A DNA stretch of 64,000 nt from a virus. Below the pieces are notes generated by a model. That model ran no database searches and was not told the DNA's origin. It saw only the letters and a program-made list of their open reading frames with translations. The position numbers were made by a program, and so were the translations under genes. The stretch's first letter is position 1. Each line of letters starts with the position of its first letter. Shown one piece after another: positions 9,372 through 34,544 of the stretch. The stretch lies in IMG/VR virus record IMGVR_UViG_3300025930_000141, positions 16,712 to 80,711 of that record; one strand, written 5' to 3'.

Positions 9372-9458
9372 TTATTCCTTCTTGCGGAGAGCAGAGTATT
9401 CGAAACCCAGACCTTTCGGTCCAACTCGGCTAGCAACCGGTTCCTGCGCGCCTGTCAG
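9372..9458 (-). CDS. Possible 28-aa peptide with CTG start
   Basis: A frame encoding TGAQEPVASRVGPKGLGF and ending SALRKKE begins with CTG, six bases after an AGGAGAG site, and its CTGA overlap with the upstream stop copies the ATGA/GTGA coupling used elsewhere here. Non-ATG start and shortness make it tentative. Confidence 0.4.
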   Translation of the reverse strand: MTGAQEPVASRVGPKGLGFEYSALRKKE

Positions 9459-9652
9459 GTTTGCTCTCCTGGTATGATTTCAATATCCCCGTAGATGAGG
9501 ATATTGATTGTTCTGTCATTTACTCGTTCATAAGTATATCCGTGAACCTGTGGGTAATCGGTCATGAGTCTATCCATGACCTCTTCAACAAAGGCGTCGT
9601 CGTCAAGGTCACGGTTATTATGTGTTTTTACCCTTAGTAAACAATGCTGCAT
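9455..9652 (-). CDS. Hypothetical 65-aa protein
   Basis: MQHCLLRVKTHNNRDLDDDA, then a KTHNN..DVF-like alpha-beta pattern ending IYGDIEIIPGEQT. Starts six bases after the tRNA-Val(GAC) 3' end, so it is read from the processed tRNA transcript. Confidence 0.65.
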   Translation of the reverse strand: MQHCLLRVKTHNNRDLDDDAFVEEVMDRLMTDYPQVHGYTYERVNDRTINILIYGDIEIIPGEQT

Positions 9653-22579: not shown

Positions 22580-22656
22580 TGCGCCAGATGGGAGTCGAAC
22601 CCACATGTATCCATTATACTTTCAACTGCTTCGGGGGCAGGGGTAATACTAGCGCA
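22580..22656 (-). tRNA. D-armless tRNA-like RNA, Arg(CCG)-type anticodon loop
   Basis: An 8-bp acceptor (TGCGCTAG/CTGGCGCA) and a normal T-arm (GTGGG/CCCAT, TTCGACT loop) enclose an anticodon-type hairpin CTGC/GCAG with loop CCCCGAA (CCG anticodon, C33). There is no D-arm; instead about 20 bases with a GTAT/ATAC stem and a TGG loop lie between the anticodon arm and T-arm. The 34469-34544 RNA has the same plan. May be a non-standard tRNA or a tRNA mimic. Confidence 0.55.
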
Positions 22657-28271: not shown

Positions 28272-28375
28272 AAAGATTAAAGGCTTTGCAAGGTGACTTT
28301 CTGGTTTAACCGCCAGAGCACCTTGGCGGGGAACAGCCGCCTGGTCCTTGTTCAAGGGAACATATTTTGCCTAAG

Positions 28376-28458
28376 TGACCATGGTGGGGTTCGAACCCAC
28401 AGTACCCATTCGGGACAGGTTAAGGGCCTGTTAGACTAGCCAATTGTCAAACACGGTC
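28376..28458 (-). tRNA. tRNA-Lys(CTT)-like RNA with C33 and long variable arm
   Basis: Acceptor GACCGTG/CATGGTC, stem ACAGG/CCTGT, loop CCCTTAA, then a class II-type variable arm (CCC GAAT GGG) and a perfect T-arm (GTGGG/CCCAC). The loop equals tRNA-Lys(CTT) except C33; Lys tRNAs are normally class I. Identity and charging are uncertain. Confidence 0.6.
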
Positions 28459-29796: not shown

Positions 29797-29900
29797 TTCG
29801 GATATGGTACGAAGTCGATAGGACACCAGTCCCAAATAGGCAGGAATCGAACCTGGCCTCGCTAACTTTGGCAACGATAAACGACTATCATCGACCCGAA
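29797..29900 (-). ncRNA. Y RNA-like small RNA Y2 (with T-arm)
   Basis: Terminal stem TTCGG/CCGAA; 5' strand GTCGAT; second helix GA(T)AGTCG/CGACTTC with one bulged base; CGTTTATC; a tRNA-like module with CCAAA/TTTGG stem and GGTTCGATTCC T-arm; 3' strand GTACCATAT. About 104 bases, starting five bases from tRNA-Arg(ACG). Confidence 0.78.
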
Positions 29901-31950: not shown

Positions 31951-33549
31951 TCAGACTCGACCAGCGAAGAAGTTAGCCATTACGCTAGGCGTAGATGAGT
32001 CGAAACCTACTACGTCGAGCATACCGGCGTCCTTCGGGTCTGCCACGGTGAAGCCTGTTGAGACCATACCTACAGAAACTAGGCGGGCGTTGCGGCCACG
32101 AGAGTCGCGGTACTGCTTAAGTGCGACATTTGGCTTAACGCTACCGGCCCACGTCTCGTTGTCGGTGTAAACCGCGAAAGCATCAACATCAATACCCTTG
32201 CTCTTGGCGTAAACCATTGGCTGGGCAATGTCGGTGCCACCGAACGACAAACCGCTGACCTTACGGAGCACGGTTTCGAACGAATCGGCGTCACCGATGT
32301 TCAGGGTTACCAACGAAGTCGTGAAGGCGTTAACCACAACGTAAGGCTCGGTGCGCACGGTGACCATAGCCATGAGCGCAGCGGCCTCTCGACAGTTAAG
32401 ACCAACGAGGCCAGCAGGGGCGTACATGGTCATAGAACCTGAAACGTCAAGGCTTACCATGGTTGGAACACCGGCAGGCTCGACGGTCTTGAAGGACTCA
32501 TAGAATCCAGACTCAAGAGCGCCCAAAACCTTAGCGTTCATACCACGGTGCTGCTTACCGAGGATACCGCGAGCGTTGGCGTACTGGACTGGGTGTACCC
32601 GGCCCTTTACGATACGCTCGCCGTCAGCAAGAGCAATAGCCACGTCGCCTGCGAACTTAACGTCCTTGAAAGCACCAATCTCTTCGAACCGCTTGAGGTT
32701 ACGAATGAGAGCGGTCTGACCTAGAGCGCCGTTGTAGAAAAGCGTCTTCCATACGTCAGGGTCCTTAAGGAACTGGGTAGGAATGGTTTCCCAAGGAAGA
32801 GCCTTGTACGTGTTAAGAACGCGCACAACTTCCTTGGCGCTTGTGGTGCGCTGCATGGCCTTGAAACCGTCGATAATTTCCGGCGTGTTTTCAATCTCGG
32901 CACGGTCGGCCTTGATAGGCCCGCCAAGAACAAAGTCACCAATGCTAACGTTTACGCCCTTAGGGTGAGCAAGACGGAATACGTCGCGGTGCGTCCAACC
33001 GTCGCGCTGGCGGTACTTGACTACCTGATAAGCCAACTGGTTGTCGTCCTTAGACGTGTACCAGTCTGCAAGGCTACCGCGCTTTGCGCGACCAAGGCCA
33101 CCCAAGTCCTTAAGGTACTGTGCGTACTCGAAAAGGTGGGTACCGGTGCGGGCAACCTTAGGGACAAGCGCCCGAACGGCAGCCTTGTTCTCAGCGTTGT
33201 GCATGAGCAAGGCTAGCACGAAAAGGCTAGGGCTGTTCTTAGGTGCGCGGTTTTCGTCAGCGACAGCGCGGAGCGTGTCGATAACCAACTGCTCGTCAGA
33301 CTTGATAAGTGCGAGGACGAACTTAGCGTTGTCCTTGGTCAACTTACGCTCTGAGACGTAGTAGGTACCGCCGTCCGTACCAAGAATCAGGAATCGCTCA
33401 AGGCGAACCTGCGGCGTAACACCGAATACAAAACCTCCGGCGTTGTTACGTACCTCGTCGGTACGTCCAGGGGTACGCTTGTTCTGAGGCGTACCGTTGT
33501 AACGAGTGTTTGCGATTTCACCCGTTAAGTTCTTTAATGCGTTCTTCAT
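31951..33549 (-). CDS. rsr: Ro60/Rsr TROVE-domain RNA-binding protein, 532 aa
   Basis: N-terminal TROVE ring domain (residues about 35-355) with the family's helical-repeat features (RFLILGTDGGTYYVSERKLT, RKGSLADWYTSKDDNQLAYQ-like segment near 155-178, TIPTQFLKDPDVWKTL), then a C-terminal vWA domain with MIDAS DVSGSM at 368-373. Ro60 proteins bind Y RNAs on the outer ring surface and misfolded RNA ends in the central cavity, and in bacteria team with nucleases for RNA quality control. Full family length. Directly downstream of five Y-like RNAs and several tRNAs in one transcript. Confidence 0.93.
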   Translation of the reverse strand: MKNALKNLTGEIANTRYNGTPQNKRTPGRTDEVRNNAGGFVFGVTPQVRLERFLILGTDGGTYYVSERKLTKDNAKFVLALIKSDEQLVIDTLRAVADENRAPKNSPSLFVLALLMHNAENKAAVRALVPKVARTGTHLFEYAQYLKDLGGLGRAKRGSLADWYTSKDDNQLAYQVVKYRQRDGWTHRDVFRLAHPKGVNVSIGDFVLGGPIKADRAEIENTPEIIDGFKAMQRTTSAKEVVRVLNTYKALPWETIPTQFLKDPDVWKTLFYNGALGQTALIRNLKRFEEIGAFKDVKFAGDVAIALADGERIVKGRVHPVQYANARGILGKQHRGMNAKVLGALESGFYESFKTVEPAGVPTMVSLDVSGSMTMYAPAGLVGLNCREAAALMAMVTVRTEPYVVVNAFTTSLVTLNIGDADSFETVLRKVSGLSFGGTDIAQPMVYAKSKGIDVDAFAVYTDNETWAGSVKPNVALKQYRDSRGRNARLVSVGMVSTGFTVADPKDAGMLDVVGFDSSTPSVMANFFAGRV

Positions 33550-33691: not shown

Positions 33692-33832
33692 TGCTGGATA
33701 TAAGTGCGAAATCGGGGTTTAACGGCGGCTTTACCATTTGCCTATACCCCACATGAATTGGGTGGGGCAACAGGATTCGAACCTGCATTCACCGGCTCCA
33801 AAGGCGATAACCGATATTCAATCGACCCAGCA
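33692..33832 (-). ncRNA. Y RNA-like small RNA Y4 (with T-arm)
   Basis: Terminal stem TGCTGG/CCAGCA; 5' strand GTCGATT; second helix GAA(T)ATCGG/CCGATTTC; CGGTTATC; T-arm GCAGGTTCGAATCCTGT; 3' strand GCACTTATAT. About 141 bases, the longest; six bases from tRNA-Ser and ten from Y5. Confidence 0.82.
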
Positions 33833-34235: not shown

Positions 34236-34309
34236 AGAGGATATGTGGTCGGCATCGTGTTTATGGTTAATTGCAATATAATTAGATAAACGATACCGTT
34301 CGACCCTCT
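34236..34309 (-). ncRNA. Y RNA-like small RNA Y7 (short form)
   Basis: Terminal stem AGAGG/CCTCT; GTCGAAC; second helix GGTATCGT/ACGATGCC; CGTTTATC; 3' strand GACCACATAT. About 74 bases without a T-arm; four bases from tRNA-Asp. Confidence 0.8.
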
Positions 34310-34464: not shown

Positions 34465-34468
34465 TGGT

Positions 34469-34544
34469 AGGGCAGACAGGAGTTGAACCTGCGTGTCACC
34501 AGTTACCCTTTCTACTCGTTATCAGCGAGAGGGGATACTGCCCT
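34469..34544 (-). tRNA. D-armless tRNA-like RNA, Ile(GAT)-type anticodon loop
   Basis: Acceptor AGGGCAG/CTGCCCT and T-arm (CAGG/CCTG, loop TTCAACT) enclose a hairpin CTCG/CGAG with loop CTGATAA, identical to tRNA-Ile(GAT). The D-arm is missing; a CCC/GGG extension and a GTAACTGGTGAC segment lie after the anticodon arm, as in the 22580-22656 RNA. Confidence 0.55.

Follow-up and report, generated by a model that had tools for sequence, protein, structure and literature searches.

What becomes of the D-arm in an RNA that otherwise looks like a tRNA, and can such an RNA still work in translation? The question is raised by a stretch of 64,000 nucleotides (nt), hereafter the window, taken from a virus record of 80,711 bases (IMG/VR record IMGVR_UViG_3300025930_000141). 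The minus strand of the window carries an array of ordinary tRNAs, of which 30 are called by ARAGORN and several weaker ones are added by the Rfam tRNA model. Within this array lie two further minus-strand RNAs, elements A and B, in which no D hairpin, a feature of the canonical cloverleaf, is found between the acceptor and anticodon arms. As read from the sequence, half of the D-arm is on the other side of the anticodon arm, so that the tRNA strand is permuted internally and non-circularly. The two RNAs belong to a family of ‘rewired’ RNAs that are very probably functional isoleucine (Ile) and arginine (Arg) elongator tRNAs, with a permuted internal strand order and the L-shaped fold retained.

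Strand order of elements A and B

The initial annotation had placed in the window two D-armless tRNA-like RNAs of transposed architecture, one of Arg type (loop CCCCGAA) and one of Ile type (loop CTGATAA). Both are present at those places, on the minus strand, and both have the acceptor and T arms ascribed to them, namely a 7-bp acceptor stem with 7/7 pairs and a 5-bp T stem with a TTCRA loop, besides a single unpaired 3′ base. Their alignment spans the whole length of both RNAs. The common order, from the 5′ end, is the acceptor strand (7 nt), T-A-T, a D-stem triplet, 2 bases, a hairpin (4 bp, 7-nt loop), 2 bases and GAAA; then 3 bases, T, A-A, 1-2 bases, G-G and a base that is A in element A and T in element B; and finally bases ending in T or C, the T arm, the acceptor strand and one unpaired base. 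The spacing from acceptor to hairpin is 8 nt in both RNAs, and the stretch from hairpin to T arm is 21 nt in A and 22 nt in B.

In canonical numbering this strand order is 1-9, 22-45, 10-21, 48-73. Positions 1-9 (the acceptor strand, U8 and A9) are joined directly to the 3′ strand of the D-stem (23-25), after which comes the anticodon arm. Behind this stand the 5′ strand of the D-stem (10-12) and the D-loop (U13 A14 R15 Y16 U17 G18 G19 N20 A21); position 48 leads on to the T arm, and the 3′ acceptor strand closes the order (table 1). The triplet kept before the anticodon arm is TAC in A and CCC in B, and the complements GTA and GGG, respectively, stand after it; since A and B differ in two of the three bases of each strand and yet the triplets match as complements in both, a D-stem across the anticodon hairpin is suggested. 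With the permuted order the D-stem would, therefore, still form, enclosing the anticodon hairpin rather than the D-loop, and the D-loop is, so read, the linker to the T arm.

Thus, the place of the D-arm, described earlier as nearly empty, does lack a hairpin, but one D-stem strand (TAC or CCC) stays there; similarly, the insert GTA...TGG...AC after the anticodon arm is present, but it is the segment from G10 to A21, that is the 5′ D-stem strand and the D-loop. The term ‘D-armless’ has to be abandoned, as the two D-stem strands flank the anticodon arm and pair (see below). The claim that the RNAs are unlike standard class I or class II tRNAs holds, there being neither a D hairpin in place nor a class II variable stem, and an ordinary tRNA interrupted by an intron is excluded because 76-77 nt leave no room for one. 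Two other assignments of the strand after the anticodon arm were rejected. A local hairpin GTATAATGGATAC, taken as a moved D-arm, is plausible in A but is not formed in B and most relatives, and its GNN covaries with the strand before the anticodon arm; the long variable region of class II tRNAs (Ser, Leu and Tyr) has a stem of its own, whereas the strand in question pairs with 23-25.

Table 1. Parts of elements A and B, by position in the window.
Feature	Position	Strand	Remarks
Element A, rewired tRNA-Arg(CCG)	22580..22655	-	76 nt including discriminator A73 at 22580
A, acceptor 5′ strand GCGCTAG	22649..22655	-	pairs with 22581-22587
A, D-stem strand TAC (canonical 23-25), 5′ of anticodon arm	22643..22645	-	
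A, anticodon hairpin, 4 bp, loop CCCCGAA	22626..22640	-	anticodon CCG at 22632-22634; C33 replaces U33
A, transposed segment 10-21	22608..22619	-	GTA strand 22617-22619, then U13 A14 A15 U17 G18 G19 A20 N A21
A, T arm GTGGG TTCGACT CCCAT	22588..22604	-	
Element B, rewired tRNA-Ile(GAT)	34468..34544	-	77 nt including discriminator A73 at 34468; CCA next after A73
B, acceptor 5′ strand AGGGCAG	34538..34544	-	pairs with 34469-34475
B, D-stem strand CCC (canonical 23-25), 5′ of anticodon arm	34532..34534	-	
B, anticodon hairpin, 4 bp, loop CTGATAA	34515..34529	-	anticodon GAT at 34521-34523
B, transposed segment 10-21	34496..34508	-	GGG strand 34506-34508, then U13 A14 A15 C16 U17 G18 G19 U20 N A21
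B, T arm GCAGG TTCAACT CCTGT	34476..34492	-	

Without its discriminator base, element A covers 22581-22655; CCA is not encoded, C74 being 22579, and tRNA-Arg(cct) follows from 22578, with that one base between. Neither A nor B is called when ARAGORN is run on the window. The Rfam tRNA model (RF00005, gathering cut-off 29) gives 31.1 bits to B and 24.8 to A, most ordinary tRNAs of the window scoring 41-71 bits; a covariance model built from relatives gives 89.4 bits to B and 78.5 to A, with 23.4 for the best ordinary tRNA of the window, the scores of A and B being so partly by construction, because both were rows of that model.

A family with covarying helices

Relatives were sought by pattern scans of viral contigs, and all family counts given here are lower bounds, among the matches listed. 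The first pattern, derived from A and B, left free the acceptor, the anticodon arm, the 5′ D strand and bases 20, 48 and 73; it gave at least 119 stretches holding 121 matches and 86 unique sequences, 71 of which have 7/7 acceptor pairs, with anticodon loops for Ile (TAT 44, GAT 14) and Arg (ACG 15, TCT 7, CCT 5, TCG 1). A second pattern (D-loop adjoining the T arm, no GAAA) and a third (G at position 15) exposed further subclasses, one of them mostly with a CGG/CCG D-stem, an ordinary 5-bp anticodon stem and Arg anticodons only. An architecture scanner, which demanded the full architecture including D-stem pairing, was applied to 370 loci with their flanks and found 267 copies (202 unique), compared with 0 copies in three rounds on shuffled sequence. 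In total, at least 240 viral-contig loci hold one or more rewired tRNAs, so that the architecture shared by A and B is a common one, and members as little as 40% identical to one another keep it. ARAGORN overlaps just 4 of 269 rewired copies. No isotypes other than Ile, Arg and four sequences with a CAU anticodon occur among the listed matches of the second and third patterns or of a looser scanner; since all patterns carry motifs of known members (the scan patterns required GGTTCRA), other isotypes may exist with other motifs.

The helices of this wider family covary. In an alignment of 59 sequences, made of A, B and 57 of the 86 unique first-pattern matches (at least 6 acceptor pairs required, redundancy removed at 90% identity), 98.7% of the cells of the 19 proposed pairs are paired (acceptor 97.8%, D-stem 100%), and the covariation score is 0.905, versus 0.216 when shuffled and at most 0.157 with slid partners. 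Double changes are found in all four helices and in two of the three D-stem pairs, the outer of which occurs as CG, AU, GC and UA. The same helices are returned, unprompted, by RNAalifold, which adds a mini-hairpin of 2 invariant pairs with zero covariation in the D-loop segment that was not adopted. D-stem counts from the architecture scanner are circular, because pairing was demanded; when the pairing requirement was removed and sequences were kept only if they had the acceptor, the anticodon hairpin and the T arm (7, 35 and 71 further matches being dropped), 3/3 D-stem pairs were found in 79/79, 64/66 and 40/40 unique sequences of three match sets, or 183/185 in total. Bases 15 and 48, which form the Levitt pair of ordinary tRNAs, likewise covary (A15-U48 in 78/82 where A is fixed and 48 free, G15-C48 in 38/41 where G is fixed and 48 free). 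Judged by this covariation, the rewired RNAs are a natural non-circular RNA permutation, in which core elements of the parent fold stand in a new order.

Identity bases, 3′ ends and codon complementarity

Of the 103 Arg members among the 202 unique sequences, 102 have A at base 20 (the exception being at locus L233), and all 95 Ile members have T there; base 73 is A in 95/95 Ile members and G (45), A (37), T (20) or C (1) in Arg members. Ordinary tRNAs at the same loci have A20 in 133 of 137 Arg cases and T20 in 46 of 59 Ile cases. In a review (PMC9976931), A20 is given as the main determinant for the Escherichia coli arginyl-tRNA synthetase (ArgRS), in addition to anticodon bases and A/G73. 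The four unique CAU members have T20 and A73 and, for this reason, are probably Ile2 tRNAs that would decode AUA after lysidine modification, although the alternative of Met stands; rewired tRNAs with a CAT anticodon and Ile-like T20 and A73 are seen at L258, L263, L298, L359 and L376. As for the 3′ end, C74 is present in 194/202 members and CCA is encoded in 78/202.

The rewired tRNAs also tend to be complementary to the ordinary ones. Across the 84 loci that have six or more ordinary tRNAs (loci with fewer, or with duplicate anticodon sets, being dropped), the same anticodon occurs in rewired and ordinary form 8 times, whereas 30.8 such cases were expected (Mantel-Haenszel odds ratio 0.115, p 8e-9). 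The ordinary set of the window, with CCT, TCT, ACG and TAT, is without CCG and GAT, which A and B contribute; ATT and ATC together make up 432 of the 486 Ile codons in 27 long open reading frames of the window.

Occurrence in phages and bacteria

Three named phage records (L120-L122) were checked with the family model. In Microbacterium phage Magritte, the annotation of which lists 26 tRNAs and no tRNA-Ile, a rewired Ile(GAT) copy (L120:5995-6071, 80.0 bits) lies in an unannotated gap between tRNA-Cys and tRNA-Ala and is absent from the published annotation; the Magritte paper names tRNAscan-SE 2.0 and ARAGORN, with default settings. Streptomyces phage Mildred21 has three strong rewired copies, one of which (L121:20006-20081) is annotated as tRNA-Phe(gaa), and the crAss-like Kehishuvirus ‘tikkala’ has a rewired Ile(GAT) between tRNA-Trp and tRNA-Met (L122:4977-5053). 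In Mildred21, an annotated tRNA nucleotidyltransferase gene (L121:1806-2327) stands directly ahead of a rewired Ile tRNA, with RNA ligase and polynucleotide kinase genes farther on. When blastn was run with A, B and two relatives, many records (e.g. of Salmonella, Escherichia and Salinibacter) matched in the T arm only, and none of these was counted.

When 84,980 bacterial and archaeal genomes were scanned with the pattern for the first subclass only, 9 stretches matched, 5 of them real and 4 by chance. Among the five real ones, the bacterial loci L124 and L129 adjoin genes of chromosomal type (TRCF; LepA and a sigma factor), a thymidylate synthase gene lies close to L123, and L128 (147,646 bases) carries a copy identical to that of the viral contig L064 (147,693 bases). 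The model search was positive in 6 of 298 genomes of one bacterial family, 2 of them already known from the pattern scan, and in 1 of 395 genomes of the same phylum, also already known; three of the six positive family genomes have a divergent rewired Ile(GAT) at 45-49 bits. Divergent Ile(GAT) copies with a 5-bp anticodon stem and an ACC/GGT D-stem lie in or near tRNA arrays at the bacterial loci L377, L378 and L379. With so few bacterial genomes positive in either search, the rewired class belongs mainly to phages and only rarely turns up in the tRNA arrays of bacteria.

Two further minus-strand features of the window concern its ordinary array: a likely tRNA-Ser(GCT) at 9386-9469, uncalled by ARAGORN, and, at 28375-28458, a tRNA-Lys(ctt) whose variable region is unusually long, adjoining an ordinary tRNA-Lys(ctt).

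Proposed fold, decoding and origin

The permuted order creates three new joins, from 9 to 22, from 45 to 10 and from 21 to 46/48. The residues at these joins are already neighbours in the core of ordinary tRNA, as in the structure of yeast tRNA-Phe, and, because of this, the usual tertiary contacts (8-14, the Levitt pair 15-48, and 18/19 with the T loop) would be kept. The host ArgRS and isoleucyl-tRNA synthetase would then recognize these RNAs through position 20, the anticodon and position 73, just as with ordinary tRNAs, and the rewired RNAs would supply Ile and Arg codons missing from the ordinary tRNA set of the phage. The architecture may go back to an ordinary tRNA gene whose segment 10-45 was duplicated in tandem and which then lost both outer halves; it would later have spread among phages. 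As a speculative and weakly held advantage, the rewired tRNAs might escape host nucleases that destroy tRNAs during infection, as proposed by analogy with the suggestion, in the available part of PMC10264068, that phage tRNAs counter host tRNA cleavage, and in view of the RNA ligase and kinase genes of Mildred21.

Several points weigh against reading the family as working tRNAs. The argument from neighbouring residues is a comparison with the yeast tRNA-Phe structure rather than a computed model. The covarying bases 15 and 48, being only about 10-11 nt apart, may form an ordinary local pair. The anticodon stem is only 4 bp long in many members. The best tree of the family, weakly supported as it is built from RNAs of about 77 nt, has 10 Ile/Arg changes, but just 3 of the independent pairs have support; these 3 are concordant (sign test p 0.25), so that the association between base 20 and isotype is strong in count but modest in independent events. 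The loci of the complementarity test are phylogenetically non-independent and mostly stretches of up to about 15 kb rather than whole genomes; an ordinary duplicate accompanies 8 of 97 rewired cases, and Mildred21 has Ile(GAT) in ordinary as well as rewired form. Finally, C33 is found only in element A, U33 being present in B and in 202/202 relatives although the scan pattern permitted C; for this reason A may be impaired, a caution limited to this one copy.

Alternative readings

The alternative that survives best, although it is unlikely, is that the RNAs are tRNA mimics, i.e. decoys whose anticodon loop serves as bait and which tie up anticodon nucleases of the host or further factors that bind tRNA. 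The proposal that phage tRNAs counter host tRNA cleavage (PMC10264068, in its available part) would suit such a role, as would the tRNA-repair-type genes that carrier phages can have (the RNA ligase and polynucleotide kinase of Mildred21) and the near restriction to two isotypes in the sets examined. However, a decoy would need neither a discriminator base nor a position 20 that follows the isotype, it would not substitute for the ordinary tRNA of the same anticodon, and the retention of C74 and of encoded CCA also argues against it.

Some animal mitochondrial tRNAs are D-armless, and that the rewired RNAs are of this sort, with an unstructured insert, is a reading to which only a slight chance is given. 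No hairpin closes between the acceptor and anticodon arms, a feature shared with the mitochondrial tRNAs and with mini HisT selected in E. coli, where, according to the available text of PMC11551756, a mini-tRNA lacking the D-arm can function; but the rewired family does have a D-stem and a D-loop, only relocated, with stem strands that covary on both sides of the anticodon arm and a canonical-looking D-loop containing the identity base 20.

Even less probable is the view that these are Ro60-bound Y RNAs with a tRNA-like part. Ro60 is encoded in the window and the YrlA model (RF02553) gives a weak match over A, but its 23.3 bits lie below the gathering cut-off of 69, and the match was rejected as a junction artefact because it crosses from the T arm of A to the D arm of the ordinary tRNA that follows. 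YrlA resembles the rewired RNAs in having T-arm and D-arm modules in a non-tRNA order; it differs in that T arm, acceptor-like hairpin and D arm are set in a long outer stem, the model showing no anticodon arm or CCA end. Moreover, A and B are without the motif GGTCGAN(2-12)TCGKTTATC, which is present at three other sites of the window (29876-29896, 33806-33827 and 34285-34305, all on the minus strand; chance mean 0.02). These sites flank on both sides the Ro60 gene (31951-33549, minus strand; Pfam TROVE and vWA_Ro60), which lies inside the tRNA array; they are probably the 5′ regions of Y RNAs, and two of the three precede a tRNA-like T arm. A Ro60 gene is also present in related Streptomyces phages and in Magritte.

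Lastly, decay or recombination into pseudogenes, the relics of which the initial annotation had warned and at which the unusual C33 of A and the apparently damaged copy L073:5159-5229 might hint, is refuted for the family by compensatory changes in every helix across many phages, by an architecture constant down to 40% mutual identity and by its absence from shuffled sequence, although a single copy could still be a relic.

Relation to known RNAs and significance

With canonical class I tRNA-Arg and tRNA-Ile (RF00005), the rewired RNAs share the 7-bp acceptor, the T arm, the 7-nt anticodon loop with U33 and A37 nearly always, the D-loop residues A14 R15..G18 G19 N20, A20 in Arg and A73 in Ile members, C74 and residence in phage tRNA arrays; they differ in the rewired strand order, the D-stem set around the anticodon hairpin, the lack of a cloverleaf and the lower Rfam scores. 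Circularly permuted tRNA genes of algae and archaea, which are restored by circularisation, also show a permuted gene order, but the rewired RNAs already have both acceptor strands at their ends and there is nothing to restore. A natural RNA core threaded in a non-circular permuted order is found in permuted hammerhead ribozymes (Eckert et al. 2023, PMC10085705), which are, however, ribozymes rather than tRNAs; in the available part of that report, only circular permutations are said to have been known before it, and tRNA is named only in connection with permuted genes restored by processing. No description of tRNAs of the rewired kind was found in the open-access literature, subscription journals and most preprints lying outside the search, and the family is apparently undescribed. 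The sections seen in a 2020 review of non-canonical tRNAs (PMC7609411) deal with selenocysteine, selC-Cys, allo-, pyrrolysine and mitochondrial tRNAs, and the word ‘phage’ is absent from the available text of a 2026 survey of 4-bp anticodon stems (PMC13092985).

The rewired RNAs are likely to represent a third way of building a working tRNA, in which the strand is naturally permuted, internally and non-circularly. They would be kept almost exclusively by phages, for Ile and Arg codons, and be charged and used normally; host enzymes that read the cloverleaf before cutting or marking a tRNA may fail to recognize them, and this may have favoured their selection. In such a widespread family, one of the oldest RNAs would have undergone non-circular permutation in nature, and translation would be shown to read three-dimensional shape rather than chain order. 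The family would reveal genes overlooked by standard annotation and offer a test of what phage tRNAs are for, whether the supply of codons or escape from tRNA-cutting defences, and it offers a scaffold for the design of orthogonal tRNAs.
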